Positions 31,159-49,542 of a stretch of DNA of 57,168 nucleotides are shown here, piece after piece. The DNA is from a virus. Each line of letters opens with the position of its first letter. Positions within the stretch are counted from its first letter, which is position 1. Under the pieces are notes generated by a model. The model did no database searches, was not told where the DNA came from, and saw only the letters and a list, made by a program, of their open reading frames with translations. The translations under genes were made by a program, and so were the position numbers. Location: positions 1 through 57,168 of the IMG/VR virus record IMGVR_UViG_3300037262_000028, one strand, 5' to 3'.

Positions 31159-31160
31159 AG

Positions 31161-31613: not shown

Positions 31614-31626
31614 AGCGGCTCTTTAA

Positions 31627-33497: not shown

Positions 33498-34585
33498 GTG
33501 TCGCCCGTAATTGCTGTTGTGACGGCGTAATCGCCTGTCGCTGAGTTGTACACCCGGTTGTCGTTTGTAACAGCAATCATCGTCACGGCAGCAGCGTAAT
33601 CGCCTACTGCTAAATTATATGCCCCATGGTCATTTGCGGCGGTGATAAACGCTGCGTAATCCGTGGCTGCCAGCTTGCCGATATTGGACCCGTGAATTAC
33701 GACGGTAACAAAACCTGCCTCTGTTAGCCCCTGCACCCCGCTGACATTAATAGTCCAGACAGGTGTACCGGTAACAACCCCCGCGGCGCTGTTTCCCTGT
33801 TTGCCTGCTAATCCTGTTCGCACCGCGCTTATTACATTACCTGCGGTAGTGGTGCCCTGAACACCTGCTGCATAAAGCCCGTCGTTCGCCGCCATCAGGC
33901 CCGCGGCGCAAGTGGCCTGTGCGCCGCTTAATGCTGCGCGTACTGCAGGTATTACTGAACCTGATGCTGACGCAGCCTGAACGCCTGCCAGTGTGCCTGT
34001 ATTAATTAAATCAGAAGTGCTGCCGGCGGCTGATGTGCCCTGAACCCCTGACACGGTGGTCTTGCCTCCCGCTGCCAGACTGCCCGGAGAAGCGGCCCCT
34101 TGCGCACCAGTTACCTGCACACTGATGCCAGGAACCAGGCTGCCGGCACCCGATACCCCTTGTGCACCGGTTAATGTTACGGCTACGGCAAGGGAGGTCG
34201 TGCCCGCACCTGATACCCCCTGCACACCTGTGGCTTGTGCCCCGCTAAAAACGACACTGCCTGCCGAAGTCGTCCCCTGGACGCCCGTTACATTAACTGC
34301 AATGACTGACGACACGGTGCCAGCGGAACTGGTTGCCTGAACCCCCGCCGTAGTTACAGCGGTCGTTACGCTGACATTTCCCGCGGCAGATGTGCCTGCA
34401 GCGCCGGTAATTGCTTGTAGCAGCGCAGGTATGGTGGTGCCTGCGGAACTGGTTGCCTGAACACCGCCAACCTGATACTGAATACGGACTGACAGAACCC
34501 CGGCAACAGAGTTCGCCTGAACTCCGGTGACGGCATAACTGACAGACCCGCCGGCTGAACCGGAAAAAAGGAGCAGCATGGACAT
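33494..34585 (-). CDS. GVQ-repeat virion protein (363 aa)
   Basis: Fourteen repeats of a nine-residue core of type G(V/A)QxTSxAG (for example GVQATSSAG, GVQGTTSAG, GAQGVSGAG), spaced about 18-22 residues. After that are two or three DYA-type repeats at the C-terminus (ATDYAAFITAANDHGAYN, VGDYAAAVT). A beta-solenoid or chain of small beta-units is likely. Such GVS/GVQ repeats are common in phage head fibres. Located in the head module. Confidence 0.65.
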   Translation of the reverse strand: MSMLLLFSGSAGGSVSYAVTGVQANSVAGVLSVRIQYQVGGVQATSSAGTTIPALLQAITGAAGTSAAGNVSVTTAVTTAGVQATSSAGTVSSVIAVNVTGVQGTTSAGSVVFSGAQATGVQGVSGAGTTSLAVAVTLTGAQGVSGAGSLVPGISVQVTGAQGAASPGSLAAGGKTTVSGVQGTSAAGSTSDLINTGTLAGVQAASASGSVIPAVRAALSGAQATCAAGLMAANDGLYAAGVQGTTTAGNVISAVRTGLAGKQGNSAAGVVTGTPVWTINVSGVQGLTEAGFVTVVIHGSNIGKLAATDYAAFITAANDHGAYNLAVGDYAAAVTMIAVTNDNRVYNSATGDYAVTTAITGDT

Positions 34586-34608
34586 AGTGCTGTCCTTTTA
34601 ATTAACTA

Positions 34609-35250
34609 TTAAACTGGTACTTCTTCCCAGGAAAATGAAGCTAAAAAGCCTGATGCGGCCATCACTGCAGAGGTGTAGATGAGCGCATAGCCGCCTGGGG
34701 GTAAAATAATTTCACCTTTTATATCGTAAATACCAGGCATCGATTCCGTTGTGGTTACTGCGCCGGTTCCCAGCGCACCTAAAATAGTGTCTACGGTAGG
34801 TACGACAGGCAGCGTGATCGTGGCTGAAGAGTATAACTGGGCAACAGGCTGTGCACCCGAGCCTATATTTTTTGACTTAGGATTCAGCGATGTCAGAGTT
34901 CCGCTCAGTGCTGCAATGCCGTAACCGGTGGCCAGACCAAATACCAGCGGTGCTGCTGGTGCAACAATAAAACCGATGCCGACACGTTCAATCGCGACGT
35001 TTACTGCCGAACCGACCGGGTTGTAAAGCACTACCGTACCTGTTACCGTGGTGCTTAACCCGGCGATAGTTGCTGTCGCTAAGGCTGCCTGCATCGCGCC
35101 ACCAAAACGGGACTTACGATACGTACCTTCATAACAAGGCCCGTGTAGTTCTGAAACAATTACGTCGTTCATGTTGCCGGAACGGACAACGGGCTGCGAC
35201 CCGGACGGCGAGGAAGCCGCTGGTGCGCCGGTTTGCGTAGTAATTTGCAT
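34609..35250 (-). CDS. Virion structural-region protein (213 aa)
   Basis: A protein with MNDVIVSELHGPCYEGTYRKSRFGGAMQAALATATIAGL, a phrase shared with conserved phage structural proteins upstream of DUF1073 portals, and a beta C-terminus ending LASFSWEEVPV. The role may be head decoration. It has a Shine-Dalgarno (AAGGG). Confidence 0.55.
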   Translation of the reverse strand: MQITTQTGAPAASSPSGSQPVVRSGNMNDVIVSELHGPCYEGTYRKSRFGGAMQAALATATIAGLSTTVTGTVVLYNPVGSAVNVAIERVGIGFIVAPAAPLVFGLATGYGIAALSGTLTSLNPKSKNIGSGAQPVAQLYSSATITLPVVPTVDTILGALGTGAVTTTESMPGIYDIKGEIILPPGGYALIYTSAVMAASGFLASFSWEEVPV

Positions 35251-35262
35251 AGTTATAACCCT

Positions 35263-36861
35263 TTAAATATAAGTAGCACTGACGCTACAAGTCGATGCGG
35301 TGATCGCTGTTGCATCCAACACGGCGATAGCGCCAGTGACTGCCCAAATTATGCCTGATGAAAACGACATACCAACAGAGGGTATCGGTAGTGCATAAGA
35401 AGCTGTTGGCGGTATATAAACGTTATAAACCGGTGTCGTCGTGCCTACCGTTGCCGTAGATGCGTTAAATAGTTTTAGCCAGACCCCTGTACTGTTGGAG
35501 TTAGATACCGACATCGACATCAGCCGGCCCCCCGAATTTTTAATTAGTTGACTTACAGGTGTTGCTGGTGCCAGCACTACTGTGGCAAATGACGTCCCGC
35601 TAGGTGTTACTGTTATGCCCAGGGCTATTTGCCCGGCTGCGGCGGCTGAAGCTGTTCCCCCTATTTGATTTATGTTAACAGGGGCGGGCGCTACGTACCC
35701 CGACGCCCAGGGTTGCGCACGTAAATAGGCTGTCGCGTTACCGGCACCCGTTACCGTTAACTTTATCCAGCGTGCTAAACAAGGGAAACTGTAAGAACCA
35801 CTCGAAATGGTGGTTACGTACCCGTTTATTATTAGCGCCGCCGTCCCGGATAACGCTGACCAGTTTACAAGGTCATTAGAACAGCTCACCGTGGCTTGCA
35901 TAACATAAGTTGTTATATTTAAGCTTTGGTACCCTGTCGTATCTATGACGAGCTGGCCGTTAACTACACCGTTTAACGGGATTGGTACTGGCGCATCTGA
36001 AACAAGTATCCGGCCATTTACATCGACCGCTGGCTGATTAACTATCTTAAAGCGTGCCGCAAGACCTAACGTATCATCAAATAAGGCAGACATAAAATCG
36101 ACGTTGGCAAAATCGCCAGCCGGGTCGCCCGTTATTGCCTGAAATAGCGGCCCGTCAGATGATGTTGCTGCTAACGTGGCCGGGTCGGGAACACTGCTGC
36201 TGCTAATAACGGTGACTGGCAGTCCTGCGCCCGGTGCGATAGCCACACCGTTGATTTCGTTTAATGCGACGGGCAGGTTACCTAAATTAGTCACCGGCAT
36301 AATAGCGCCGTATGCCACATTCAAATTAAACAGGGTGGTCGTGTTGGGACCGACATTTTGCGCCGTTACTTTGACGTAGTTACCGTTCAAAATGCGTGAG
36401 ATATTAACCGCGTTGTCCGGCGTGACTAAATACGTCCACACATCGGCCAGATTTACCCCGAGAATATCGACATATTGCAAAACAGTTAGTATAAGCGGCT
36501 GATCTGATGTACATAAAAACGTGATAGCCGGTTCCGCTTCCGCTGTTTCAATCGCGCCGGGAAATATTTGCCCGGGGGCTAATTGTGCGGTGCTGGTATT
36601 AACTGTACTGTAAAAAAAATTAGTCGCGCCCAGCGCAACCATCAGCCCGTTTTGGCCGGCACCGGCTGATAAACTGTTAATCGGGGAACCGGAACCGTCA
36701 TTACTGTTAACGCTTCCGGTCCATGCCGATTCGCTGCTACCGTCAGCCCCACCCCCTACGTCGAGGATGGTCATCGGTGTTTTAACACCTGCGTTGACCG
36801 TTTTTGCTACCGTACGGATTATATCGCCGGCCCCGCCGCTTGATGCGCTATTGTCACTCAT
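35263..36861 (-). CDS. Large beta-rich virion protein (532 aa)
   Basis: Mostly Ser/Thr/Val-rich strands. NGVVNGQLVIDTTGYQSLNITTY followed by ARWIKLTVTGAGNATAYLRAQPW resembles the beta-sandwich appearing in several phage head fibre proteins. No enzyme motif is visible. It probably belongs to the head decoration set with its neighbours. Confidence 0.55.
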   Translation of the reverse strand: MSDNSASSGGAGDIIRTVAKTVNAGVKTPMTILDVGGGADGSSESAWTGSVNSNDGSGSPINSLSAGAGQNGLMVALGATNFFYSTVNTSTAQLAPGQIFPGAIETAEAEPAITFLCTSDQPLILTVLQYVDILGVNLADVWTYLVTPDNAVNISRILNGNYVKVTAQNVGPNTTTLFNLNVAYGAIMPVTNLGNLPVALNEINGVAIAPGAGLPVTVISSSSVPDPATLAATSSDGPLFQAITGDPAGDFANVDFMSALFDDTLGLAARFKIVNQPAVDVNGRILVSDAPVPIPLNGVVNGQLVIDTTGYQSLNITTYVMQATVSCSNDLVNWSALSGTAALIINGYVTTISSGSYSFPCLARWIKLTVTGAGNATAYLRAQPWASGYVAPAPVNINQIGGTASAAAAGQIALGITVTPSGTSFATVVLAPATPVSQLIKNSGGRLMSMSVSNSNSTGVWLKLFNASTATVGTTTPVYNVYIPPTASYALPIPSVGMSFSSGIIWAVTGAIAVLDATAITASTCSVSATYI

Positions 36862-36867
36862 GACTTA

Positions 36868-37548
36868 TTAAGCGATACGAATTAAAGAGGTGGTTGAGCC
36901 TACTGTGGGCAGGAGTATAGTAAATGTGCCAGCCGTTACGGTTTGTGTACCGCCAAAGCTGCCGATATAAGCGCAATAAGTCTGGTTACTCGCGTTATAA
37001 ATCATGCATCCTGATGTGCTAAACGTAGCCGATGTCCAGCTCGGGTTTGTTGTGGGCTGCGTGACAGCGACCAGCGTGTTCAGCACCGGTGTGGTATTTA
37101 ATGCGCCGCCGCACGCCTGTCCGCCCTGTATATATCCGCCCGATCCGGCTAATTCATCGGTGCCTAAGTTGGTTGTTGTGGGCGACCCTGAACTTGACCC
37201 CCACTGAACCGACCCCGCGCCATATGTTCCTGTCACCGTCGCAATCATCAGGGCACAATTAAAATTATGCCCGACGAAGGTTAATGTAGGTGACCCGGCA
37301 CCTGTGCATGCCTGGGTGATATAGCAAGACGTGGTACTGTCGATCGCACCCACAAAACTGTTTGCCGGTACGTTGGTGCCTGATACGCTGCAACCGATAG
37401 CTACGTTGGCCAGCGACGACAGTGCTGTGATATGTGTGCTTGTGTTAGCCGTTGTGCCGGTCGCTGTACCCGAACCGTTAAAGCAGTGGCCGCCCTGTAA
37501 GACGCTGACCTTAAACTGAGAGGGGAGTGCGGTAGTAATACCAGCCAT
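36868..37548 (-). CDS. Virion protein with divergent Gly/Thr module (226 aa)
   Basis: Residues about 28-92 (THITALSSLANVAIGCSVSGTNVPANSFVGAID, then TGAGSPTLTF) are a distant form of the insertion domain, here with the VSGTxVPA turn. The rest is beta-rich with two cysteine pairs (QACGG, GCMIYNASN). Function unknown; head region. Confidence 0.55.
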   Translation of the reverse strand: MAGITTALPSQFKVSVLQGGHCFNGSGTATGTTANTSTHITALSSLANVAIGCSVSGTNVPANSFVGAIDSTTSCYITQACTGAGSPTLTFVGHNFNCALMIATVTGTYGAGSVQWGSSSGSPTTTNLGTDELAGSGGYIQGGQACGGALNTTPVLNTLVAVTQPTTNPSWTSATFSTSGCMIYNASNQTYCAYIGSFGGTQTVTAGTFTILLPTVGSTTSLIRIA

Positions 37549-37550
37549 GG

Positions 37551-38054
37551 TTATTCTCCGGTCGTGATCGTCGCGCTGTCACCAGCAGGGGTAACAGCCG
37601 GTGCCAGTGTGGCTTTAAATTCGATACTGTGACCAAGGTCAGGATTGCGGTCTGCGTGCCAGCTTCGTTCAATTTGCATACTTGTCTGAAAATGCGATAT
37701 TAGTGTGGCGCGAATACGGTCAGGCATTGCCGGGTCGCTAAAATCGGGCGCCCACTGGGTGGCCTGGCCTGCGGCGATAATCGCCGCTACAGCAGCGTCT
37801 AAATCGGTATGGTCAGACGGGCTGCCGTCAGCGACCAGCCGGCTGCTGTCGTTAGCGATAAACAACCGTTCCCCGGCTTGTACCTCGTCGTGGTGCTTTT
37901 CCAGAATATCGACAATAGCGCCCATTAGCTTAATACCTACGCCGCGTTTTTCCGGTGCGATGTCATCAGCGATAGCCAGAATATGGGTGGCTGTGGCTTC
38001 TGCCCAGGCTGCGCCGGAGTGCGGGCCGCCGTTAGTGATCAGGATACCTTGCAT
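37551..38054 (-). CDS. Hypothetical protein next to terminase (167 aa)
   Basis: The N-terminal half (GILITNGGPHSGAAWAEATATHILAIADDI ... HHDEVQAGERLFIANDSSRLVAD) is mixed alpha/beta; the tail is Thr/Ala-rich. Twenty bases separate it from the large terminase stop. No function is recognised. Confidence 0.55.
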   Translation of the reverse strand: MQGILITNGGPHSGAAWAEATATHILAIADDIAPEKRGVGIKLMGAIVDILEKHHDEVQAGERLFIANDSSRLVADGSPSDHTDLDAAVAAIIAAGQATQWAPDFSDPAMPDRIRATLISHFQTSMQIERSWHADRNPDLGHSIEFKATLAPAVTPAGDSATITTGE

Positions 38055-38073
38055 GATAAGCCTTTTAAATAAT

Positions 38074-39675
38074 TTAGATCGCCGCTACAGCATACTGACT
38101 GATCGTGATAGGTTTTCGTGCGGTCACCGAAAAAGCGATCATAACCGCGTCGGCTAAATTTGGCGACTTGGTATTGTCTGGTGCTTTGTTCACCACGATC
38201 TTACCGATATCGTTAGTGACATAAGTTGGCTGGCTCAGTTCGCCAACCAGTTTGCTATGATGTTTAATGGCTGAGCTGATCGAAATAATATCGTCCGGAT
38301 CGCATACGCGTCCTTCGACCACCCACCCGTACGTTTTCTCGAACCGGCGGCGCAACGCCCACCAGGCCTGCGCTTTACGGTCCCGGAAATAATCTTTATT
38401 CTTGCGTCCTTTAACGTCTTCGCCTTCAGGGTTAAAGACGGCTTCAGAACCGCGGAAGGCTTCGGCTTCAATGGGCCGCTGACCGTTGTCGGTGCGCCGC
38501 TGGGCAATGATACGCGCGTCGCCGCGCACGCCCGCGCCCAGTCCGTCACTATCGTACTTAAATAATTCGTATCCCATCGCGTCGCAGATATCGTGGGCTT
38601 TAAAAGCTGTCCTGAAAATATCGCTGCCTTTACCGGACCATTCATCGACGTATTCCAGAACAATGCCGTGACGTCCGCAGAACGCGTTCATATCTTTACC
38701 TTCGTCGGCCACGTCCAGTCCGCCGGATTTCATGCCTGACGGAGGTATTTGCAATCGCAGGTGCGCGTCAACCGACGCTTTAATCCAGCTGACAGGGATC
38801 AAAACGCCTTCCACTGAGGCTGCGAAGTCGCAATCTATTTCCTGCGCGACGGTGACCGGATCAAGTTCTTCGCACTGGCGGTTGTACCACGCGATATCTT
38901 TCCTGGGATCGTCCTGCCAGTGAAAGGTAAAAAGTTTAATTTTGCCGCCATTGCATTTATCTGCGAATGGATTGCCGTACCCGTTCGGTGTCGAAATATC
39001 GATACGGCAATTCGTTGTCTGTGACAGCGAAGCCTCCACCAGATGCGGCCTTTCAAGAAACGCCGATTCATCCACAAGGTAAATGGATGTCGTATTTCCG
39101 CGGCCAATATTGTCTCCTGCTTCGCCCGTAATTGTGGCGCCCGTTTCCGGGAAAATCAGCCGCATATGCGGCGCGTGCTTACCCGCTTCCCACCCCGCCC
39201 GAAACTCAACGGGCAGGTTGGCCATAAATGTGCGCCCTTTGTGAAAGAGCGATTTCGGGTCGCCCACCGAGTCCACGTAAATCTCTTTACGTGACCCGAC
39301 GCCGATGGCCATCCCTTCATTAAAAATACTGAGCGAACAACCGACGGCCATGGCCAGCCAGGAGAAACCCATCTGCCGCGTTTTCAGCGTCATCATCGGT
39401 TTCTGGTTATGCCAGCACCAGATAACATCGTTAATCCAGTCTTCCTGTTTCGGAAACAGGATGAACGGAATCAGGCTGGGCAGACCGCGCTCCACATTTT
39501 TTGGATCCACCGTCACGCCCCAGTCCATAATAAACTGCGGGATGTGTTCTTTGTAGTACGCTTTAATCCCAGGGAGCTCACCAGGGTTGTTACGGATGAA
39601 TGTTAATGCGTCAGCGCGCATCTGGAACACGGCGTTGTAATCCGGGTTCATGTAATCGAAATTAAGAGGGCGCAT
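38074..39675 (-). CDS. terL: Terminase large subunit
   Basis: A 533-residue protein. Walker A-like TLKTRQMGFSW (residues 96-106, K98), Walker B SIYLVDESAF with D202-E203, then the nuclease half with GLDVADEGKD and FKYDSDGLGAGVRGDA. It translocates and cuts DNA for packaging at the portal. The small subunit lies upstream with a 40-residue gene between. Confidence 0.92.
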   Translation of the reverse strand: MRPLNFDYMNPDYNAVFQMRADALTFIRNNPGELPGIKAYYKEHIPQFIMDWGVTVDPKNVERGLPSLIPFILFPKQEDWINDVIWCWHNQKPMMTLKTRQMGFSWLAMAVGCSLSIFNEGMAIGVGSRKEIYVDSVGDPKSLFHKGRTFMANLPVEFRAGWEAGKHAPHMRLIFPETGATITGEAGDNIGRGNTTSIYLVDESAFLERPHLVEASLSQTTNCRIDISTPNGYGNPFADKCNGGKIKLFTFHWQDDPRKDIAWYNRQCEELDPVTVAQEIDCDFAASVEGVLIPVSWIKASVDAHLRLQIPPSGMKSGGLDVADEGKDMNAFCGRHGIVLEYVDEWSGKGSDIFRTAFKAHDICDAMGYELFKYDSDGLGAGVRGDARIIAQRRTDNGQRPIEAEAFRGSEAVFNPEGEDVKGRKNKDYFRDRKAQAWWALRRRFEKTYGWVVEGRVCDPDDIISISSAIKHHSKLVGELSQPTYVTNDIGKIVVNKAPDNTKSPNLADAVMIAFSVTARKPITISQYAVAAI

Positions 39676-39681
39676 AAACGC

Positions 39682-39804
39682 TTATTTCTTAGGCTGTTTT
39701 GGCTTTAAAGCCAACAGCCCCCAGCCCAACTGTCGCCTGATCTGATCGGCTGTCAGCGGTGCAGTCTTTGGTTCGGGCCGGGGGTGCTTGGGTAGTTCAG
39801 ACAC
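39682..39804 (-). CDS. Small basic protein (40 aa) between terminase genes
   Basis: GTG start at 39804 preceded by AAAGGAAGGTGATCA, a strong ribosome site, and the stop lies six bases before the large terminase ATG. The product MSELPKHPRPEPKTAPLTAD ... LALKPKQPKK is proline- and lysine-rich. The strong ribosome site and tight fit in the operon support it as a real gene. Confidence 0.6.
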   Translation of the reverse strand: MSELPKHPRPEPKTAPLTADQIRRQLGWGLLALKPKQPKK

Positions 39805-39827
39805 TGATCACCTTCCTTTCCAAACAA

Positions 39828-40523
39828 CTAACTGCCAGACAACATCCTCTGATAGGCTCTGCTGGCGTCGATCGCATTAATTCCTGCAAAGTCGACATTC
39901 GCCGTGATATCCTGCAGGGCTTTTGCAGACGCTTCCTTATTGCCGGCCAGTACCGCTAAAGCCGGTTCCAGCGCTTTATTCGCTGCTGTGGAGAGGGCCA
40001 TCACGTTGCGCGCCACTAAGTGGTTGTTCGCATCGGGGTCTTCCATGTTCAGTTTTTCGACTTCCTTATTCGCCGCCTGCGCCAGTACGTGCGCCGTTTT
40101 GGCACCGTAATTCGCCGCGCCGACAACTTCTGTCGTCATGGAACGCAACTGATCAATTAATTTTTTCGTGCTCTCCTGATGTTCTTTCGGGAGCTTTTCC
40201 AGTGTTGCCCGCGCCTTGTCGGCGGCAGCAGTGGCTTCCGGCGACGCGTCAGTCTCCGCCGAAAATAAATCTTTAGCGACGGTTGTGATCATTTTGATTT
40301 TCTGGGAAACGTTACGGCTGATCGTGGATTGGTTTACCTGATGCTTGTCGGCTAATTCCGTCGTGGTTGCGCCTTGCAAATACTCCAGCTCGATCGTCGT
40401 CCATTCTTCCGGCGTTTTCGCGCGCGGCATTCCGCGGCGTTCACCATGGTGCACTATTTTCTTCGGCCGTATCTTAGGCCGCAAATAATCGTGACTGTCG
40501 CTGGTATCGGGAACATAAGCCAT
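39828..40523 (-). CDS. Terminase small subunit-like
   Basis: A 231-residue protein with a helix-turn-helix (EYLQGATTTELADKHQVNQSTISRNVSQKI, about residues 48-77) and then a helical body. DNA-binding proteins of this shape directly upstream of terL act as small terminase, choosing the packaging start. First gene of the late operon. Confidence 0.75.
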   Translation of the reverse strand: MAYVPDTSDSHDYLRPKIRPKKIVHHGERRGMPRAKTPEEWTTIELEYLQGATTTELADKHQVNQSTISRNVSQKIKMITTVAKDLFSAETDASPEATAAADKARATLEKLPKEHQESTKKLIDQLRSMTTEVVGAANYGAKTAHVLAQAANKEVEKLNMEDPDANNHLVARNVMALSTAANKALEPALAVLAGNKEASAKALQDITANVDFAGINAIDASRAYQRMLSGS

Positions 40524-40538
40524 AAACCACCCGCAAAT

Positions 40539-40563
40539 AAAAAACGGTCCTGTTTAGGAACCG
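40539..40563 (-). terminator. Terminator-like hairpin before terminase genes
   Basis: On the minus strand CGGTTCCT-AAAC-AGGACCG followed by TTTTTT: a 7-bp stem with one bulge, ending 15 bases before the small terminase ATG. It would block late transcription unless antiterminated. Confidence 0.65.
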
Positions 40564-40611
40564 CGAAGACCATGACGCACGCTAAGATCATGGCCGGAGA
40601 TTGTTGGATGC

Positions 40612-40631
40612 AGGGGTTGCTTTGGCAACCC
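40612..40631 (-). other. Perfect hairpin GGGGTTGC/GCAACCCC in late leader
   Basis: Eight-base stem with loop CAAA on the minus strand, without a U-tract. In a late leader it may be a pause or antiterminator-related structure. Confidence 0.5.
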
Positions 40632-40669
40632 CGCGCTCACCCACCGAAGCGAATGAGGGGGAGTACAAA

Positions 40670-40705
40670 GAAAAAAGCCGGCTCGCGTGCGGCACAGCTT
40701 TTTTC
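40670..40705 (-). terminator. Terminator-like hairpin in late leader
   Basis: On the minus strand AAAAAAGC and GCTTTTTTC flank a GC-rich inner region with GTGCCGCAC. The final T run and position about 110 bases after the presumed late promoter recall lambda tR'. The inner stem is imperfect. Confidence 0.5.
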
Positions 40706-40809
40706 AGAGCGAGTTAAGCAATCAAGTGAAGCGTCTAAGGTAAGACGGTGCCCCGCTTTCGCCCTGATTATGCATTTCGGATTGTGAAACCGGATCTGCA
40801 GTGATGTGG

Positions 40810-40838
40810 AATATACACCTTAGTTTTCTATCGCGCAA
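40810..40838 (-). promoter_or_regulatory. Predicted late promoter
   Basis: Minus strand TTGCGC (40838-40833), 17-base spacer, TATATT (40815-40810). It lies just after the Q-like gene and points to the terminase operon. The region 40524-40846 otherwise holds hairpins but no credible gene. Confidence 0.55.
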
Positions 40839-40846
40839 CTTATTTT

Positions 40847-41353
40847 TTACGCCGCCATTTTTCGTGCCAGTTTCTTCACCGCCATATTGCCGGCATACCG
40901 TTCCAGTTCCGCCAGCGTTTCAACCATATCCTTCACGTGGTTCAGAATGCGCGCCTCGGCGGCTACCGGTTTCGTGCCGGACCCGCTGCAGGGTTTGCAT
41001 GTCGCTTCATACGCGCCTGTCTGATTAAACTTAGGATGGAATCCTCGCCCCTGACAGGCCGGGCACACCGGATTTAACCAGTACGTCATCGCCGCATTCG
41101 CGACAATAACCGGGTTGATGTGTTCGGGCCAGTGCCGTAATTCCGCTTTGTTTTTTACAATCGCTATCCACTTGACGCTTAACGTTTTGTACGAGGTTGC
41201 ATCGTTGCAATATTTCACCCGGTACATGTCGGTAGCCAGTCTGACAGGGGAGAGGGCTAACGCAATTAACGCGTCGGTGGCGAAGTGCCGGTCGTCATCC
41301 CTCAGATTACTGCTGTTCACGGATCGTGCGTACTTTTCGGCTATTTCTGTCAT
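40847..41353 (-). CDS. Lambda Q-like antiterminator (putative)
   Basis: A 168-residue protein. Two knuckles CPACQGRG and CKPCSGSG (about residues 96-127) are followed by an Ala-rich helix, the same order as in lambda Q (CRDCHGTG ... CGRCKGVG). Q binds DNA at the late promoter and modifies RNA polymerase to read through terminators. Here a promoter and two terminator-like hairpins stand directly downstream, before the late operon. The N-terminus shows no clear similarity that I can see, and DnaJ-like zinc knuckles occur in other proteins, so the call rests on both motif and place. Confidence 0.6.
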   Translation of the reverse strand: MTEIAEKYARSVNSSNLRDDDRHFATDALIALALSPVRLATDMYRVKYCNDATSYKTLSVKWIAIVKNKAELRHWPEHINPVIVANAAMTYWLNPVCPACQGRGFHPKFNQTGAYEATCKPCSGSGTKPVAAEARILNHVKDMVETLAELERYAGNMAVKKLARKMAA

Positions 41354-41400
41354 GCTGGCTCTCCCGGGCGGCTTTGTTTTTGCATCGCGAACACGGCGCG

Positions 41401-41429
41401 AGTGTACCGCACACCGGTCTGTATGGCAA
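41401..41429 (-). promoter_or_regulatory. Predicted promoter for the Q-like gene
   Basis: Minus strand TTGCCA (41429-41424), 17-base spacer, TACACT (41406-41401), about 48 bases before the ATG at 41353 which has GGGAGAG before it. Confidence 0.45.
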
Positions 41430-41546
41430 CACTTTTTGCATAGAGACGAAAAATTTTGCTGCGCGGGAACGCGTTTTAGAAAATAAAACGGCTAGTTGCA
41501 TACGGTAAGGGGGTGGGCGTTGTGGTTTGACTATTTGACTATTTAA

Positions 41547-42155
41547 CTATTCCTGATCGTCAAACAGAGAGGGTGCGGGGATCAGCTGCCGGGTAAGATG
41601 CTTCCATGTTTTAAAGTTGCGGATATGCGATACCGCTGCCTGGCTGATGCCATACTCTTTCGCCAGTACTTTCTGTTTTTCGTTTCCGTAACGAATACGA
41701 ATCACAGCATCTTCGTCTAGTTTCGATGCTGGATGGTCTTCACCCTCAGTCTGCGTTCCGTGTCGTCGTTTATCCCGCATATTCTGCAGATGGTTGCCCA
41801 GGTACAGATTCGTTATCGCATTATCGAGATGATTTCCGTCCTTGTGCAATACGTGCGCGCCTTCAGGTATTTCGCCGTGAAAAGCCGCATAGACCAGCCG
41901 GTGAACCTGATAGCGTTTAATTCCCGGCGTTTCAGACAGCCACACCGGTTTAGACAATATCACGCCTAAACGCCCTTGCTTATTGGTCCCTGGTTTCAGT
42001 AGCGTTTTATGAATACGCAACCCCTCATCGATCGAAGACTGCAACAGCCGGGCCACACTGCGTACGCGCCCGTGACTGCTTGCCTGGTATAGTCCGACAT
42101 ACCCCGGGATATCGCGCCATTCTTCGTATTCATCTAAAGCGTTCCAATTTTCCAT
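41547..42155 (-). CDS. HNH homing endonuclease with NUMOD4 domain
   Basis: A 202-residue protein. NUMOD4 (EEWRDIPGYVGLYQASSHGRVRS, about residues 11-33), then HNH_3 core VHRLVYAAFHG ... HVLHKDGNHLDNAITNLYLG, and a C-terminal helix-turn-helix (VLAKEYGISQAAVSHIRN). Free-standing homing nucleases of this type spread between phage genomes at conserved sites. It lies at the end of the non-coding block and may have landed there. Copies of GACTATT flank its 3' end. Confidence 0.9.
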   Translation of the reverse strand: MENWNALDEYEEWRDIPGYVGLYQASSHGRVRSVARLLQSSIDEGLRIHKTLLKPGTNKQGRLGVILSKPVWLSETPGIKRYQVHRLVYAAFHGEIPEGAHVLHKDGNHLDNAITNLYLGNHLQNMRDKRRHGTQTEGEDHPASKLDEDAVIRIRYGNEKQKVLAKEYGISQAAVSHIRNFKTWKHLTRQLIPAPSLFDDQE

Positions 42156-42185
42156 AATATACCTTCAAGTCTGTTTTACGTCCTT

Positions 42186-42214
42186 ATTATATTTATTTTT
42201 TAGTTAGGGTGCAA
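42186..42214 (-). promoter_or_regulatory. Predicted strong promoter upstream of HNH gene
   Basis: Minus strand TTGCAC (42214-42209), 17-base spacer, perfect TATAAT (42191-42186). Transcription would begin near 42179, 24 bases before the HNH ATG. Confidence 0.6.
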
Positions 42215-42362
42215 GCGTTTTTACCGGGGGGTGTCTGCTTAGGCTGGGGGCTAAAAGCTTGTAGTTGTAAGGTTGACAACTATTTGTAAAAAAGTGCCGC
42301 GCGGCTAAATAGGTACCCCTGTGGTCAGTCGGCCAAAAGTGTCCGATGGGGGCCTGTTTGAC

Positions 42363-42417
42363 AACATTTCTCAGTAGTAATGTTAGCTAACAGATAACAT
42401 TACTACTGAGAAATGTT
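42363..42417. repeat. Perfect inverted repeat, 23-bp arms, 9-base loop
   Basis: Arms 42363-42385 and 42395-42417 are exact complements with a GCTAACAGA loop. It can form a long hairpin or cruciform and contains a TGTTAGCTAACA palindrome (42381-42392), repeated at 42421-42432. Confidence 0.85.
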
Positions 42418-42432
42418 ATCTGTTAGCTAACA
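42381..42432. repeat. Two copies of palindrome TGTTAGCTAACA
   Basis: Perfect 12-bp palindromes at 42381-42392 and 42421-42432, centres 40 bases apart. Further GTTAGC half-sites lie at 42554, 42561, 42733 and 42740. A dimeric DNA-binding protein could use them. Confidence 0.75.
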
Positions 42433-42748
42433 ATTGTTAGTTAAAATATATCGAATTACGATTATAAGTGTATGTTAGTGTTATTTGTCGAAATAATGAT
42501 TATGCGAAATTGAAAATAATAGTGTTAATAATCAATGACTTATATAGTAGATTGTTAGCTGTTAGCTAGTCAGTTGTCAGAATTGACGGTCAACTACTAG
42601 ATATAGTGTTGTCCGTTATCGATCGATGCTGGCGTTTTATGCGCCGTGTTAGCGCCTGGGGATTATGGTGTTGTCAGCTTGCATACACTTTTGACTGCCC
42701 CGCTTGCTAACTGCCGAAGCTGTTGTTCAACCGTTAGCCGTTAGCAGA

Positions 42749-42789
42749 CAGTCAATAGCCAACTACTAGATGTAGTTGGCTATTGACTG
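42749..42789. repeat. Perfect inverted repeat, 18-bp arms, 5-base loop
   Basis: Arms CAGTCAATAGCCAACTAC and complement surround TAGAT, directly before the tandem repeats. A partial relative of this centre (CAACTACTAGATATAGTGTTG) occurs near 42591. Confidence 0.85.
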
Positions 42790-42968
42790 CCAGGACGCTG
42801 CCAGCCAGGACGCTGCAAGCCAGGACATTGCCAGCCAGGACATTGCCAGCCAGGACGCTGCCAGCTGCCAGCCAGGACGCTGCAAGCCAGGACATTGCAA
42901 GCCAGGGCATTGCCAGCTGCAAGCCAGGACATTGCCAGCCAGGACATTGCCAGCCAGGACGCTGCAAG
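42790..42968. repeat. Eleven tandem repeats of 15/22 bp (CCAGGAC core)
   Basis: Nine 15-bp units and two 22-bp units share CCAGGAC followed by (GC/AT)TGC(C/A)AG; one unit has CCAGGGC. No spacers are present, so it is not CRISPR. Iterons of this size often bind initiators or partition proteins. Confidence 0.9.
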
Positions 42969-43469
42969 CCGGCGCTATTTTCATCGCATTTTGTGGGACT
43001 TGGAAATAGTCAAATAAAGCCGAAAAACAGAATAGTTAAATAGTCATAGTCATTTTCAAAAAACTTTTTTCCCGGCCCAGCATTTGTGTAGGATTATATG
43101 TATATGTATAATATTCCTTTATTATAAAAGGGTATATGACTATTTAACTATTTACTTAACTTTAGCAGGGGAAAACCGCAAAAATCACAAAACTATTATT
43201 CGACTATCAGTTGACTATTCCATGTCTTATTTTGACTATTTTCGTTTAGCCTAAAAAGTCAAAAATACCGCGCGCGTAAAAAATACACGAAAACAGCACA
43301 AAAACAGGCAAAAACGCGTTTCCAAAAACGTCGAAAAACGCACGAAAAAAACACGAAAAGCCACTAAAAACAGGTATTACAAAATAAATTGAAAACGACT
43401 ATTCGACTATTCCCGTTTTCAAGCCTGGCAGTGCGCGGTTAAAACCGGGATGCGCAAAACCACAAGATA

Positions 43470-43498
43470 TTAGCAAATTAGAGTAAATACTCTATAAA
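43470..43498 (+). promoter_or_regulatory. Predicted promoter with inverted-repeat operator
   Basis: TTAGCA (43470-43475), 17-base spacer, TATAAA (43493-43498). The spacer contains AGAGTA-AA-TACTCT (43480-43493), a likely operator. It drives the rightward operon starting at 43592. Confidence 0.55.
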
Positions 43499-43591
43499 TA
43501 ATGCTTGCATAGCGTAAGGAAATTATTTACAGTGGAGTCACTGAGCAAACAAAGCTCAGCCAGATAAACGAAACGACATTGGAGAAAAATC

Positions 43592-43720
43592 ATGAATGCA
43601 ACTACTTACACAAGCTCACGCGCTGTTATAACTGATGATGCAAAACGTATTGCGCTGATCAAAGCACGCATTGCTGCCTTGCTGGCTGTCGAAAGCGCTA
43701 AGCTTGGCCTGTCAAACTAA
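43592..43720 (+). CDS. Small hypothetical protein (42 aa)
   Basis: ATG preceded by GGAGAAAAATC. Product begins MNATTYTSSRAVITDDAKRI with a helical Ala-rich end. It is the first gene of the operon. Function unknown; abundance of such leader-type small proteins in early phage operons is common. Confidence 0.55.
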   Translation: MNATTYTSSRAVITDDAKRIALIKARIAALLAVESAKLGLSN

Positions 43721-44194: not shown

Positions 44195-44590
44195 ATGGCA
44201 CGCATTACAAAAGCACAGATAAACGCCGAATTAAAAGCCAGCTGCAAAGCTGAATTACTGAAAATGTTGCAACCAGGTAGCGAAATTTATACCGTGTTGA
44301 AACACGTTTCAGTGTCCGGCATGAGTCGCGAAATTCAGCTGTTGGCCACTGAAAACGGCCATATCCGCAACATCAGTCATCTTGCCGCGCAGGTCATGGG
44401 CGACAAAATAGGCAACCACGACGGCATAAAAATACCGGGTTGCGGTATGGATATGGGTTTTGCCCTGGTCTATAACCTGGGCCGTTGCTTGTTCCCTGAT
44501 GGTTTTAAAATCGACGGGCGCGGGCGTAATGGCGACACAAGCGACCATGATAACGACGGCGGATACGCACTTAAACACCGTTGGATATAA
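44195..44590 (+). CDS. Conserved phage protein (131 aa)
   Basis: Contains VLKHVSVSGMSREIQLLATENG and IPGCGMDMGFALVYNLGRCLFPDGF, then GGYALKHRWI. This pattern is widely conserved in phage hypothetical proteins, where the GCGMDMGF run is a hallmark. The function is not known. A good ribosome site (AAAGGAG) precedes it. Confidence 0.75.
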   Translation: MARITKAQINAELKASCKAELLKMLQPGSEIYTVLKHVSVSGMSREIQLLATENGHIRNISHLAAQVMGDKIGNHDGIKIPGCGMDMGFALVYNLGRCLFPDGFKIDGRGRNGDTSDHDNDGGYALKHRWI

Positions 44591-44603: not shown

Positions 44604-44735
44604 ATGAGAACCATAGAAACGACAGTATATAAATTCGGTGAGCTATCAGACGAAGCCAAACAAAAAGCGCTTAATGCCTAGCGCGATTTAGGCAATTTTG
44701 ACGACGAAGGCGCTATCCACGGGGAGCTAACATGA
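44604..44735 (+). pseudogene. Truncated conserved small protein, amber stop at 44679
   Basis: The first 25 codons (MRTIETTVYKFGELSDEAKQ...) match a family of longer phage proteins with 'VY.F.ELSDEAK.KA'. A TAG at 44679 interrupts it; the same frame then continues RDLGNFDDEGAIHGELT to a TGA that overlaps the next ATG (44732). A nonsense change, recoding or a much reduced gene are all possible. TAG is a normal stop elsewhere (16290, 54288). Confidence 0.55.
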
Positions 44736-44914
44736 ACCACGAGATAAAAGTAGCAACCAATATCGCGACCGGCCAGAAAACCTATTTTGTCGACGGTCGC
44801 AAAAAACCGCGCGAATACGTGCAATTTTTAGAACGCCTGGCAGAGCGCACCGAATGCATGTTTACGCGCGCAACGAAAACGCACCAGTACAACTACAAAA
44901 CTTTAAGGGGGTAA
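44732..44914 (+). CDS. Small hypothetical protein (60 aa)
   Basis: Begins MNHEIKVATNIATGQKTYFV, basic C-terminus (RATKTHQYNYKTLRG). It overlaps the previous frame by ATGA. No domain recognised. Confidence 0.55.
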   Translation: MNHEIKVATNIATGQKTYFVDGRKKPREYVQFLERLAERTECMFTRATKTHQYNYKTLRG

Positions 44915-44915
44915 C

Positions 44916-45305
44916 GTGAACACAATCAATATGGAAGCCGTACAGAGCGCGGTTGCTATTGCAGATACATTTTTTGCCGCACGCCTTACCAATTCACACG
45001 TGCACAACCCGGCGCAAGCCTGGAGTAACTTAACAGGTGAGGGCATCATAGAACTGTATGATGAAATAGCAAAATTCGGCGCCCTATCAGCTAAATTTAG
45101 CGCGCAGCAAAGCCAAAAATACGCCAGTGGTGTTTATGCGTATCGTGTAGATAACGACTTCGGCACCTATTTTTCTGCCAGGCTATTTGATAAAACGTAC
45201 GATTTTGAAAAGGCAAGCCGCTATTTGCAAAACCTTGTCATTGCGTTTTATCGCTGCCCAACGAAAACGCAAAGTATCGATAATATGACGAGGGCGCGGC
45301 CATGA
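44916..45305 (+). CDS. Hypothetical protein (129 aa)
   Basis: GTG start just after the previous stop with AAGGGGG before it. Mixed alpha/beta product with TFFAARLTNSHVHNPAQAW and ASGVYAYRVDNDFGTYFSARL. Stop overlaps the next ATG (45302). Function unknown. Confidence 0.6.
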   Translation: MNTINMEAVQSAVAIADTFFAARLTNSHVHNPAQAWSNLTGEGIIELYDEIAKFGALSAKFSAQQSQKYASGVYAYRVDNDFGTYFSARLFDKTYDFEKASRYLQNLVIAFYRCPTKTQSIDNMTRARP

Positions 45306-45463
45306 AAGCACTAATAAAACCGGTTTTATTGGCAGCGAAAGTCGTCACATTACCCGTGCTTGCTTTGCTAATAATCGCGCTATTCTTCGCGCTCATGATG
45401 ATCGAATTTTTCCTTGAATGCGTCGAAGACATCGCACAAGGAAACGAAACGAAAGGAAAATAA
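45302..45463 (+). CDS. Small membrane protein (53 aa)
   Basis: Starts with ATGA overlap. A hydrophobic helix of about 25 residues (VVTLPVLALLIIALFFALMM) follows a short basic start; the tail is charged (EDIAQGNETKGK). A single-pass inner-membrane protein is expected. Role unknown. Confidence 0.6.
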   Translation: MKALIKPVLLAAKVVTLPVLALLIIALFFALMMIEFFLECVEDIAQGNETKGK

Positions 45464-45464
45464 A

Positions 45465-45648
45465 ATGGATCACGGTATAACTTTAGACTACCTGCGCACA
45501 ATGGCGGACAAGGCCGAAACAACCGAAGAGCTAAAAAACATCAATCGACGCTTCTTTTAAATACGGCTTGATTAGCCTAAAAGACTATAAGCGCCTTTTC
45601 AATAAATGGCTTGAAATTCAATGCAATAAAGAAGGGACCTTACCATGA
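45465..45648 (+). pseudogene. Small protein gene with frameshift near 45543-45555
   Basis: Frame from 45465 (MDHGITLDYLRTMADKAETT) stops at 45560, but a neighbouring frame continues ASFKYGLISLKDYKRLFNKW to a TGA overlapping the next ATG at 45645. One base removed around 45543-45552 would give about 60 residues. The coupling at both ends supports one original gene. Confidence 0.45.
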
Positions 45649-45701
45649 AAAAAGGCGATTACATTATTCTGGTCGACGCTATTCGATGCTTTCGACTATG
45701 A
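45645..45701 (+). pseudogene. Truncated copy of the MxKGDYIILVD protein
   Basis: Eighteen codons beginning MKKGDYIILVDAI then a premature stop. The first 12 residues match those of the intact gene at 46128, so it looks like a broken paralogue. Ribosome site AAGGGACC precedes it. Confidence 0.4.
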
Positions 45702-45756
45702 GCAGTCTGACGAATATATCTATGATCTATCCACCCACCGAAGGAAAGGAATAACT

Positions 45757-46107
45757 ATGTGCCTGACAAATTTGGAAGCATTAAAATTGGGGCGTTTGAC
45801 AGCCGAAAGTATAGAAAAACTCGTGTATTTTGAACATGCTGCACTAACTGATTTACCCGCGATAATTGATAAGATAGCCGATTTAAGGACTAACGCTATT
45901 AGCCTAAAAATTGCTGAAATTAAAGAGTGCTTAGTTAAAATAAAATCAGACGGATTTGATGCGCAAGAGTTCATAATGAGCAAAACCACGTTAGGACAAG
46001 ATTTAAACGAATTAGTCGATGAAATAGAAGATATCGAAAACGAATTAAATTCGTCGCTACACGATATCGAAGACCGTATTTTTATGCTGACTTATGGAGA
46101 CGAATAA
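45757..46107 (+). CDS. Coiled-coil protein (116 aa)
   Basis: ATG with strong AAGGAAAGGAATAACT before it. The product is rich in Glu, Ile, Lys and Leu with two long helices (residues 15-75 and 80-110), e.g. ELVDEIEDIENELNSSLHDIED, a probable coiled coil. Function unknown. Confidence 0.65.
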   Translation: MCLTNLEALKLGRLTAESIEKLVYFEHAALTDLPAIIDKIADLRTNAISLKIAEIKECLVKIKSDGFDAQEFIMSKTTLGQDLNELVDEIEDIENELNSSLHDIEDRIFMLTYGDE

Positions 46108-46127
46108 AATGAACGGGCAGGTATATC

Positions 46128-46304
46128 ATGCGTAAAGGCGATTATATTATTCTGGTCGACGTGATTAAAAAACATATGGCATTAGCTGCGCTACGCCAGG
46201 ACAAAAACGCTATGCTGGAATTGCGCACCCTGGCCGTTGAACTGTCTGAAAAATTGCATGTTGACCGTGAAAAATTTTTGACAGCATGCGAATTAAAGTA
46301 CTAA
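46128..46304 (+). CDS. Small hypothetical protein (58 aa)
   Basis: ATG at 46128, GGGCAGG upstream. Begins MRKGDYIILVDVIKKHMALA and continues as an amphipathic helix. It is the intact relative of the broken gene at 45645. No function known. Confidence 0.55.
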   Translation: MRKGDYIILVDVIKKHMALAALRQDKNAMLELRTLAVELSEKLHVDREKFLTACELKY

Positions 46305-46387
46305 AAAACCGCTTGCAATTCGTGACAGAAAGTTTTAATCTGTAATTCTTGATTCACCCGGATACCAGTACCGGAATACCAAAACTG

Positions 46388-46439
46388 AAAAGCCTAGGGG
46401 CCATAACGCTAATTCGCGTTATGGCCCCTAGGCTTTTTT
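46388..46439. terminator. Strong bidirectional terminator
   Basis: 22-bp perfect stem (46388-46409 and 46416-46437), loop TAATTC, with TTTTTT after the right arm and AAAA before the left arm. It closes the rightward operon. Confidence 0.9.
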
Positions 46440-46463
46440 GTTTTCAGTATGCATTAGGCAACT

Positions 46464-47187: not shown

Positions 47188-49542
47188 TCATTTTCCGACA
47201 GCGCGAAGCCCGGTCACTTTCGACGGGCCGATTTCTTCAACCAGATTGCGCAATGCCGATTTTCTGCGTGCCTCCACCATGTCAGGCGCGGCGAACAGAT
47301 GGCGTTTATTCAGATTGTCTTTACTGCAGACCAGTCCCAGGTCTTTCCAGCCGGCTTCTTTAAGACTATGCAACAGCGCTGCTTTGGGCACTTTGCTGCC
47401 ATTCGGTGCAGACAGCGCTAACCGTTCACATAAGCTGTTGAAGGGGCCACCGATCACACCTTTAGCAAACTCGCCCTGGCGTAACGTGATCATGTCGAGA
47501 ATAAACGACTCGGACATTGACCGGCCATTTTCGATCAGATTGGCTTTGTAGTCGGTCATGGAGGGCGCTTCTGCCGGATTGAATTTACTCACATCGCGTT
47601 GTGACAACCACAGGGCGATCTGGCCAAAGCCACCACCCGTATACCAGGCCCAGATACGGTTCGCTTCTTCCGGCGTCATGCGCGGTGCCTGCGAGTTAAG
47701 GCAGAACCAGCGCCGGTCCTGCGACGCTAACGAAATAGGGATCTGTTCATTGGAGTAAGCTAACACAAACAACCGGTTAGCCATCTGGTAAGGCGCTTCA
47801 TGCTTACGTTGAATATCCAGCATTTCAGGCGGGGCGGCGATGATTGGTTTGAGTTTATTCGCCATGGCGCGCCGCGCTGACGCATCGGGCTCTTTTAATT
47901 CGTTGATGATTAGTATTTCGGACTCCAGTGCGTAACCCCATTGCGAATCGATCGTGTCACTATCCATGTAACCGCGGTTGCGTAAGCCTGACCCGCAGAC
48001 AGACCAGATAAACGGCGCCCACATCGTATCTTTGCCGCACCCTTCATCGCCCACATGCAGTACAGCATGATTGATTTTGATCGTCGGCTTTTGCAATTTG
48101 AACGCCATGATGTCCAGCACATGTTCACGCTCCTGGACAACCGGAATAAGCCGCTCTGTCAGACCGAGCCAGAGTGAGATGTCCCCCATTATCACATCAG
48201 ACAAGTCAGGCCGCGCGTCAACCCATCTGTTGCCGTACAAATTATCGGCGTCGCCCCGTTCAACAACAGGCGGATCGCCCGCAGCATAAGTCAGATTAAT
48301 CAGAAAAGACGCGCCTTGCGCGACGCGCAGTTCGTCAAACGCGACGGATGCTTCTATCTTGCGTTTATTATGAATGGATTTGCAGTGGGTGCCACGCATC
48401 AACGCGTTGAACGATGCGCGTGACAACATGCGCCGGTTAGTCATATCGAAGTAGGCATCATTTTGCTGCACATACATAAAACGGGTGTACCACTCATCCC
48501 GGGATACCCGGTCTAACTCTTTACGCTCTTCGCGCGCGTCTATTTCTTTAACGGCGTCTGCCGGCGATGAAAAAAGGGGGGAGGGTTTTAATTTGGACAG
48601 CGCTGACGCCATCCTGCCGGACACGGCTTCGTCTTTTAATCCCACAACATGTTCAGGACCACCATTATCAGCAATCAGCTTTAAGTAGTACGCTGAATCC
48701 AGTGTCGTACAGTGCTCATGCAGACAGCAGAACGACCGGTTGACGGGATGGTAGCGCGCCATGGGATTACCATCGCTGTGATTTTCATGGTTGGGGCAGA
48801 TCACACCCCACCATCCGGCACCGTTACCAGGTTCCAGTATCTGCTGATTGGCATGAAGGAATTCGAGAACGTCATCGTCACCAGTATCGGCAAGCGTAAC
48901 GTGAGAGAAAGATGCGGTGCTGGATTCGCCTGGCACGACGCTTAACGCAGTCAGTATTTGTTCCAGCGTAAATAACCGGTCAGGATGGAATTCAACTAAG
49001 ACGGAAGCGAAATTGTTTTTGCCAGGCTTTAAGTTAGGGGAACCCGGCAGCCGGAAGTTGCGCACTTCATTGGTGGCGCCAGCGTCCGTGAATCCTGCAG
49101 CAGCAATCGCCTCGATCGCCGCACAAAAGTCTGCTTTCTTTGGTTGGTGGTCGAAGTTAAATGCATAACCCCACTGAAAATTGCCTGGCGACGTTTCCAT
49201 CTTCCAGGTGGGTTCTAACGGCGGCACTGCTGATTTGGTACCGATGTCATCTAACACCATCACTAGTACGTATTCGCAATTAACTTTGGACGCGGATACT
49301 TTACCGCGCGGCATCCGGTCCAGCATAAAGCTGCCCGTGTTACCGTACCAGGAACCGTGAGCTTTAATCTTTTCCGGCATGGACGCCGGCCAGGTATATT
49401 TGAGAGAACCATCCTTGTGCACCGCCTGGATGCCATCCACCATCACGGGTTTCTGGCAGACGAAAAGCGTTGTTTCGTCTTCAGGAGCTAAACTAATAAG
49501 GAATTGAAGAAAGGGGCTTTGTGCTATAATCTCGTTCGCCAT
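47188..49542 (-). CDS. Primase-helicase
   Basis: A 784-residue protein. N-terminal primase-like half with VLDDIGTK (D98, D99) and RNFRLPGSPNLK; a zinc-like cluster with CPNH (249-252) and CCLHEHC (272-278); then an SF3/D5-like ATPase with Walker A GDEGCGKDT (498-506), Walker B-like ILIINELKEPD, and a DUF5906-type LFVLAYSNEQIP segment. It primes and unwinds the phage DNA. It is the last large gene of the replication operon. Confidence 0.85.
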   Translation of the reverse strand: MANEIIAQSPFLQFLISLAPEDETTLFVCQKPVMVDGIQAVHKDGSLKYTWPASMPEKIKAHGSWYGNTGSFMLDRMPRGKVSASKVNCEYVLVMVLDDIGTKSAVPPLEPTWKMETSPGNFQWGYAFNFDHQPKKADFCAAIEAIAAAGFTDAGATNEVRNFRLPGSPNLKPGKNNFASVLVEFHPDRLFTLEQILTALSVVPGESSTASFSHVTLADTGDDDVLEFLHANQQILEPGNGAGWWGVICPNHENHSDGNPMARYHPVNRSFCCLHEHCTTLDSAYYLKLIADNGGPEHVVGLKDEAVSGRMASALSKLKPSPLFSSPADAVKEIDAREERKELDRVSRDEWYTRFMYVQQNDAYFDMTNRRMLSRASFNALMRGTHCKSIHNKRKIEASVAFDELRVAQGASFLINLTYAAGDPPVVERGDADNLYGNRWVDARPDLSDVIMGDISLWLGLTERLIPVVQEREHVLDIMAFKLQKPTIKINHAVLHVGDEGCGKDTMWAPFIWSVCGSGLRNRGYMDSDTIDSQWGYALESEILIINELKEPDASARRAMANKLKPIIAAPPEMLDIQRKHEAPYQMANRLFVLAYSNEQIPISLASQDRRWFCLNSQAPRMTPEEANRIWAWYTGGGFGQIALWLSQRDVSKFNPAEAPSMTDYKANLIENGRSMSESFILDMITLRQGEFAKGVIGGPFNSLCERLALSAPNGSKVPKAALLHSLKEAGWKDLGLVCSKDNLNKRHLFAAPDMVEARRKSALRNLVEEIGPSKVTGLRAVGK

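Follow-up and report, generated by a model that had tools for sequence, protein, structure and literature searches.

A GC-rich repeat array beside the candidate iterons of a probable PrimPol-helicase origin in an uncultured phage

The window, meaning the whole stretch of 57,168 nucleotides that was analysed, is a 57-kb phage contig from a virus record. Its first 59 bases recur at its end (1-59 and 57110-57168, in 50-base tests), as expected of a circularly assembled genome, and the contig therefore looks complete. A 1.4-kb noncoding region (42156-43591) is bordered on the left by a minus-strand gene for an HNH endonuclease with NUMOD4 and HNH_3 domains (41547-42155). This is the first gene of a leftward late block that runs on to a DnaJ/Q-like protein, an HTH protein (39828-40523) and the large terminase. 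To the right lies a rightward block of small genes, the first of which (43592-43720, plus strand) encodes a protein of 42 amino acids without a family, and beyond it are leftward genes for a PrimPol-helicase, a family A DNA polymerase and a PD-(D/E)XK exonuclease. No tRNA and no known RNA family was found, and the noncoding region had no blastn match in phages or plasmids.

Several features elsewhere in the window were also recorded. The small plus-strand block at 44605-46300 looks decayed by eye, with an in-frame TAG in the ORF starting at 44605, broken ORFs around 45450-45740, and near-duplicate starts at 45644 and 46127. Two adjacent plus-strand ORFs (124-444 and 536-883), for which no Pfam match was found, appear by eye to be halves of one interrupted gene. 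The protein encoded at 1310-2074 has a weak alanine-zipper match and carries coding repeats of 12, 21 and 33 bp at 1635-1916; 12-bp arrays are also found in several contigs reached via the protein encoded at 44195-44590 (L095, L096, L099, L105 and L106). A search via a small plus-strand protein gave 25 loci, which were left unused because no other window protein matched in them, except for one HNH match in L104. Between convergent gene blocks, a long inverted repeat (46381-46444) with 32-nt arms (91%) and T-rich ends on both strands is probably a bidirectional terminator.

Within the noncoding region, a GC-rich array of 11 tandem units (nine of 15 bp and two of 22 bp) occupies 42790-42968 on the plus strand, with unit starts spaced 15, 15, 15, 15, 22, 15, 15, 22, 15 and 15 bp apart. 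Allowing up to two mismatches, the array unit was seen 11 times in the whole window against 0.58 expected, and the maximum in 100 shuffles was 3. The array directly abuts a perfect hairpin (42749-42766 and 42772-42789), in which a 5-nt loop separates two 18-nt arms of 100% complementarity. GC content is 0.65 in the array, 0.37 in the left flank and 0.33 in the right. The original prediction had described the units, the hairpin and the AT-rich surroundings correctly, and had given CCAGGAC as common to all units; this word is present in 10 of the 11, the eighth (42902) reading CCAGGGC. By our own parsing, the array consists of 7-mers (GCTGCCA, GCTGCAA, ATTGCCA and ATTGCAA) alternating with 8-mers (GCCAGGAC), so that a 15-bp unit is 7+8 and a 22-bp unit 7+8+7. 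Lags of 7, 15 and 22 are all present in the array, as are internal higher-order repeats of 22, 37 and 52 bp. A coding repeat was considered and rejected, as the frames are open throughout, yet by inspection no single peptide repeat spans the array because two 7-bp insertions shift the frame.

Further repeats lie to the left of the array. Two 7-bp tandem doublets were found on the plus strand, one of GTTAGCT at 42553-42568, belonging to the class II heptads of the GCTAACA family, and a second, GTTAGCC GTTAGCA, read from the sequence at 42733-42746, and this part of the window has an excess of lag-7 repeats. A large inverted repeat at 42360-42420, absent from the original prediction, has 29-nt arms (93%) and overlaps a second at 42381-42432 that contains TGTTAGCTAACA.

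The array is narrowly distributed. In the viral and genome contigs searched, its word was found only in one sister contig (L085), and no sequence homologue of the array was found beyond that contig. At least four copies of CCAGGAC within 500 bp were present only in the window's own stretches (L001 and L002) among the relative loci compared, and with the sole exception of the sister contig the word is neither common to nor covarying with related initiators in the contigs searched. A terminase-based search gave three near-identical contigs; two stop short of the array, and L085 ends two units into it. L085 is identical to the window at 12096 of 12156 positions over 30000-42155, and at 606 of 664 from 42156 to its end. 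Its hairpin arms are imperfect and no longer match, the 42360-42420 inverted repeat is rearranged, and its first two array units have TGTCAG where the window has TGCCAG or TGCAAG. Together these differences indicate that the region changes faster than its surroundings, probably through local duplication and arm conversion.

Tandem direct repeats adjoining an inverted repeat can be centromeres, and the array and hairpin have this arrangement. Partition, the other function put forward in the original prediction, would here mean a site of a plasmid-like prophage. This is nevertheless extremely improbable, since no ParA/ParB-type partition protein was found among the subset of window proteins searched and the region did not match plasmids.

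A different set of repeats lies directly to the right of the array in AT-rich DNA. Seven TGACTATT-type repeats containing GACTATT, which we refer to as class I iterons, are found at 43005-43411. Two are on the minus strand at 43005 and 43039 (43005-43045) and five are on the plus strand at 43138, 43213, 43234, 43397 and 43405 (43138-43411), so that an AT-rich core (43062-43130, GC 0.29), flanked by arms at 43031-43061 and 43122-43152, separates two sets that point away from it. The seven copies of GACTATT in 42971-43420 compare with a mean of 0.05 and a maximum of 1 in 1000 shuffles. The repeats are 3.8 to 4.2 kb downstream of the PrimPol-helicase gene, with a plus-strand gene block between.

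In order to compare this arrangement with that of relatives, loci encoding related PrimPol-helicases were collected, and 80 were kept of 484 confirmed, 70 of them with at least 3.4 kb downstream of the gene. A 7-mer recurring at least six times in 700 bp was present 1.2 to 5.5 kb from the gene in 65 of the 70, and was absent or unclear in the other five; a count of six was reached in 2 of 70 shuffled controls (best of five shuffles) and in 4 of 38 upstream segments. The clustered words include TGACCCAA, TTGACCTA, TGACAATT, GTCCACA and TGACCGAA. Among repeated 6-mers, the most frequent distance between copies is 9 bp (984 pairs, from 60 of the 65 loci), and the clusters are mostly 9-bp tandems. 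In the common layout, copies that face left come first and are followed, across an AT-rich gap, by copies that face right; the window matches this layout at a comparable distance from the gene. A like layout is found in GenBank MW202483, whose primase is 49% identical, with TTGGTAGTG / CACTACCAA followed by TGTTTACATAAACA palindromes. The window differs in its iteron lag, which is 8 instead of 9, and its word clusters in none of the relative loci compared; TGACTAT is one base off the TGACAAT of L006, L008 and L011.

Other elements were seen in or near the origin zones of relatives. A LexA-box-like palindrome, CTGT-N8-ACAG (e.g. CTGTATATATATACAG), is present in the zones of 22 of the 70 relatives, for example L006, L013, L031, L049 and L065, at 0.31 per kb compared to 0.005 per kb elsewhere in the loci, and there is none in the window. 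Where present, it may link the SOS response to the firing of the origin or to a promoter. Tandem repeats of 23-24 bp (AAAAACGGGAGCGTYGCCCTG) follow directly after the PrimPol-helicase gene in L012 (12301-12417), L013 (2691-2769), L016/L017 (12304-12411) and L079 (12301-12417), where they form a second repeat site adjoining the initiator gene. A homing-type endonuclease gene directly adjoins the origin region both in the window (the HNH gene) and in MW202483, where it is annotated (L121, 10712-11158), and the origin-directed nuclease Odn of ICP1 is a suggested comparison for these genes. In the relatives, an HNH gene was matched in three loci, none of them with the gene beside the origin zone.

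The conserved position and layout of these clusters indicate that the noncoding region is very probably a replication origin. The comparison thus agrees with the location in the original prediction, which had also read the array itself as the iterons and had proposed a turn in cumulative GC skew near 42.5 kb as a check. No such turn was found at the noncoding region; in the detrended cumulative skew of the circularised sequence, the maximum is at 14.4 kb and the minimum at 54.5 kb. As for the iterons, the conserved set is the TGACTATT-type at 43005-43411, and the CCAGGAC word extends to the sister contig only. The array is thus probably not the iteron set of the initiator. Eleven copies adjoining a hairpin and AT-rich DNA would suit that role, but the iterons of relatives are 9-bp words of TGAC or GTCC type in AT-rich DNA, such a set is found right beside the array, and the likeness of GGACATTG in the array to GGACAATG, a word of the GTCCAC class, is loose and judged by eye. 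That the array serves as the iterons is therefore very unlikely.

The proposed initiator is the 784-amino acid PrimPol-helicase (47188-49542, minus strand), an SF3 helicase (DUF5906) with a RepB-type primase N-terminus. The DUF5906 profile match was above the cut-off, and the RepB_primase match was below it. A model of the whole protein was of middling quality (mean pLDDT 72, pTM 0.42). Its nearest solved structures are those of the C-terminal region of the NrS-1 polymerase (6k9c and others, Foldseek E 1.2e-12), with lower matches to the S-2L PrimPol, the SaPI5 primase-helicase and PriRep1; the sequence match to NrS-1 is weak (E 0.004). In a model of the C-terminal domain (pLDDT 76), a helix at about 720-730 is followed by a strand (733-738), a loop (739-746) and another strand (747-751), which places residues 739, 741 and 744 in the predicted wing of a winged helix. 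This domain alone gave weak matches to winged-helix-type folds, with no Foldseek E value under 0.001 and a best Z of 7.0, and none of the matches listed was an NrS-1 or SaPI chain. The codons of residues 739-744, the proposed iteron reader, are at 47311-47328 on the minus strand.

The choice of iteron word in relatives is associated with three residues in this predicted wing. Word classes, GTCCAC versus GACCCAA/GACCTAA, were defined by us after seeing the words. On the primase tree they fall in clades, with eight changes. When all alignment columns were scanned, only 739, 741 and 744 (window numbering) fully separated the 24 GTCCAC loci from the 33 GACCCAA/GACCTAA loci (24/24 vs 0/33); L019, which carries both words, was left out. 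The GTCCAC loci have K739, R741 and D744 (hereafter K-R-D), whereas the GACC loci have A at 739, G, S, N or A at 741, and P, Q, T or A at 744. Over the same rows, the best column of the DNA polymerase reached a separation of 0.67 and that of the exonuclease 0.73, compared to 1.0 for the three primase columns. In the closest contrast, between L056, L066, L074, L077 and L082 on one side and L030, L040, L025, L032, L034, L036 and L031 on the other, 11 of 12 fixed protein differences are at 735-763. L056 exemplifies the K-R-D type and L030 the A type. The initiator and its iterons are thus matched as a pair in relatives.

A prediction was written before further loci were fetched. Among 144 new loci, 21 had a primase of the training set, and 107 distinct loci were left. 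GTCCACA was more frequent than TGACCYAW in 15 of the 17 K-R-D loci with enough sequence, versus 4 of 43 loci with A739 and without D744 (Fisher p 8e-9, relatedness ignored). In the first tabulation of this hold-out set, GTCCAC outnumbered the other two words compared in 14 of the 17 K-R-D loci, and it reached at least seven copies in 10 of the 17. In the L054-like part of the hold-out set, each of the 21 A-type loci has more TGACC than GTCCAC. The prediction thus largely held. Without a 4-copy threshold, the counts were 23/24 vs 2/45 in the discovery set and 15/17 vs 4/43 in the hold-out set.

The combined sets comprised 160 loci in which the sequence downstream extends for 2.5 kb or more, and a tree of these was built without the code columns. 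Seventy of these had neither word at four copies and were dropped from the main table; in the 90 that were clearly classed, the GTCC word was found in 32 of 32 K-R-D loci and in 0 of 58 others. All seven phylogenetically independent pairs agreed with the code (sign test 0.016). The misfits of the hold-out set (L127, L132 and L234) have words such as TGACCCACA and TGGCCCACA, which end in CCACA, and at least eight copies of CCACA were present in 38 of 41 K-R-D loci versus 2 of 119 others. As an explanation after the fact, the K-R-D wing may therefore read the CCACA half of the word. Clusters of TGCCGA type are found in four D739 loci, and in the L061 clade the majority of loci have neither class of iteron.

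This covariation suggests that residues 739, 741 and 744 read the iterons. The initiator of the window has C739, K741 and L744, a combination found in no other relative listed. No other locus of the set pairs TGACTATT with C739/K741/L744, so the case for this coupling comes from the relatives; a unique word accompanied by a unique trio of residues is consistent with the code.

From the computed repeats, the conserved position and layout, and the link between word and residues, we infer binding, melting, priming and a role for the array, in a joint reading that we consider moderately probable. In this reading, 42156-43591 would be the origin, and the PrimPol-helicase would bind the TGACTATT-type iterons at 43005-43411 via the wing of its C-terminal winged helix, assembling on both iteron sets, which face opposite ways. 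It would melt the AT-rich DNA that separates the sets and prime there. The CCAGGAC array would be another block of repeats in this origin, specific to the lineage and placed towards the late genes. Most likely it would act as an accessory origin element or a late-side regulatory site, gaining and losing units by slippage.

The role given to the array draws on the nearest relatives. In L003-L008 and L010, the seven nearest relatives that reach the region, a second class of repeats is interspersed with the iterons or follows them, in the form of 7-bp tandems (GCTAATA, GCTAACA or AGCTAGG) or multiples of 14 bp. A lag-7 excess is present in six of the seven, two of these six being near-identical, and a lag-14 excess in the remaining one. 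The array modules resemble the GCTAACA, GCTAATA and AGCTAGG heptads of these relatives by our own parsing, which is a likeness without statistical homology. In L011, an unrelated and independent GC-rich array with the same 15/22 spacing is located at the matching place, between iteron groups. The heptad arrays of the nearest relatives, the doublets of the window and the L011 array together lead us to take the CCAGGAC array for the form that a fast-changing late-side repeat block of the origin has in this lineage. GC-rich islands are present in only 25 of 65 origin zones, and such a block is thus not a constant part of the origin.

Two other accounts of the array bear on this role. It could be a minisatellite, neutral or selfish, that slippage created in noncoding DNA and that has no function. 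Its presence only here and in the sister contig would fit that origin, as would the higher-order repeats of 22, 37 and 52 bp, which are typical of slippage, and the TGTCAG difference in the first two L085 units despite near-identity over 30000-42155. For the array itself, this accounts for the observations nearly as well as an accessory block does, yet the array is placed exactly in the origin region, where the nearest relatives carry heptad arrays, and an independent 15/22-bp array occupies the matching place in L011. We therefore regard a functionless array as possible, if fairly doubtful. Alternatively, the array may be a late-side control or packaging site, bound by a small terminase or a late regulator, beside the leftward late operon. 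It does lie between the origin core and the leftward genes that lead to the DnaJ/Q-like protein, the HTH protein and the large terminase, and in the relatives inspected a small terminase-like gene (assigned by eye) starts about 100-370 bases past the origin zone. However, the HTH and terminase genes of the window are 2.3-3 kb away with two genes between, and the array word occurs in no relative, making a packaging or late-control site unlikely. On balance, an accessory block of heptads that evolves quickly and has a putative function is the most likely identity of the array.

An accessory block of this kind would sit beside an origin that has parallels in known systems. The origin of phage P4 carries iterons. 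Its alpha protein combines primase and helicase in one initiator (PMC7145576), and the PrimPol-helicase of the window resembles it in this fusion. SaPI Rep and SCCmec Cch2 are described as self-loading helicases that recognise the short direct repeats of a noncoding origin through the C-terminal domain (PMC7581432). The window would share with SaPI Rep a self-loading helicase and an iteron origin, and the SaPI5 primase-helicase and PriRep1 are structural matches to the model of its PrimPol-helicase. The SaPI origin is directly downstream of the gene, whereas the probable origin of the window is 3.8-4.2 kb away past genes on the opposite strand, and the reading residues of the window are proposed from covariation. 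The NrS-1 PrimPol-helicase, the best structural match, is proposed to begin replicating the genome at a recognition site of 8 nt (PMC8718748, PMC7102993), of which the genome has two copies (PMC7102993). It differs from the window in having these two sites and no iteron cluster, and its priming specificity is assigned to its N-terminal part. In the PLE satellite of Vibrio, the DNA-binding domain of the initiator RepA covaries with the origin iterons and has switched several times (PMC8263062). The window's relatives show a comparable covariation of initiator and iterons, although RepA belongs to another initiator family (RepA_N) and its iterons are semi-palindromes of about 30 bp. A further paper (PMC5862659) also belongs to this literature.

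Here the AEP primase and SF3 helicase are phage-encoded, with NrS-1, the S-2L PrimPol and SaPI5 as structural matches. The system of the window probably belongs with the iteron origins of primase-SF3 helicase initiators of the SaPI Rep, P4 alpha and NrS-1 kind. In the literature searched, which was covered partially through titles and the openings of abstracts, no description of the origin of this phage group or of such a residue code was found; with such coverage, this is weak evidence of novelty.

More broadly, a large group of uncultured phages might share one origin design, in which the PrimPol-helicase reads 9-bp iterons with three wing residues and lineages repeatedly swap the whole word, in its ten or so copies, together with the wing, the 15/22-bp array then being a second, separately read class of heptad site. 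As a whole we hold this idea to be doubtful. Such swaps of word and wing could perhaps serve to escape origin-directed nucleases or satellites, the HNH gene beside the origin being one candidate.

To our knowledge, the origins of most uncultured phages are unknown, and in this phage GC skew fails to reveal the origin. The layout, with 9-bp iterons facing both ways round an AT-rich core at a set distance from the PrimPol-helicase gene, would in combination with the three-residue code allow origins to be called from sequence in hundreds of contigs. The code also makes the co-evolution of initiator and origin testable with short oligonucleotides, and the window illustrates that the most eye-catching repeat of an origin region need not be the functional iteron.
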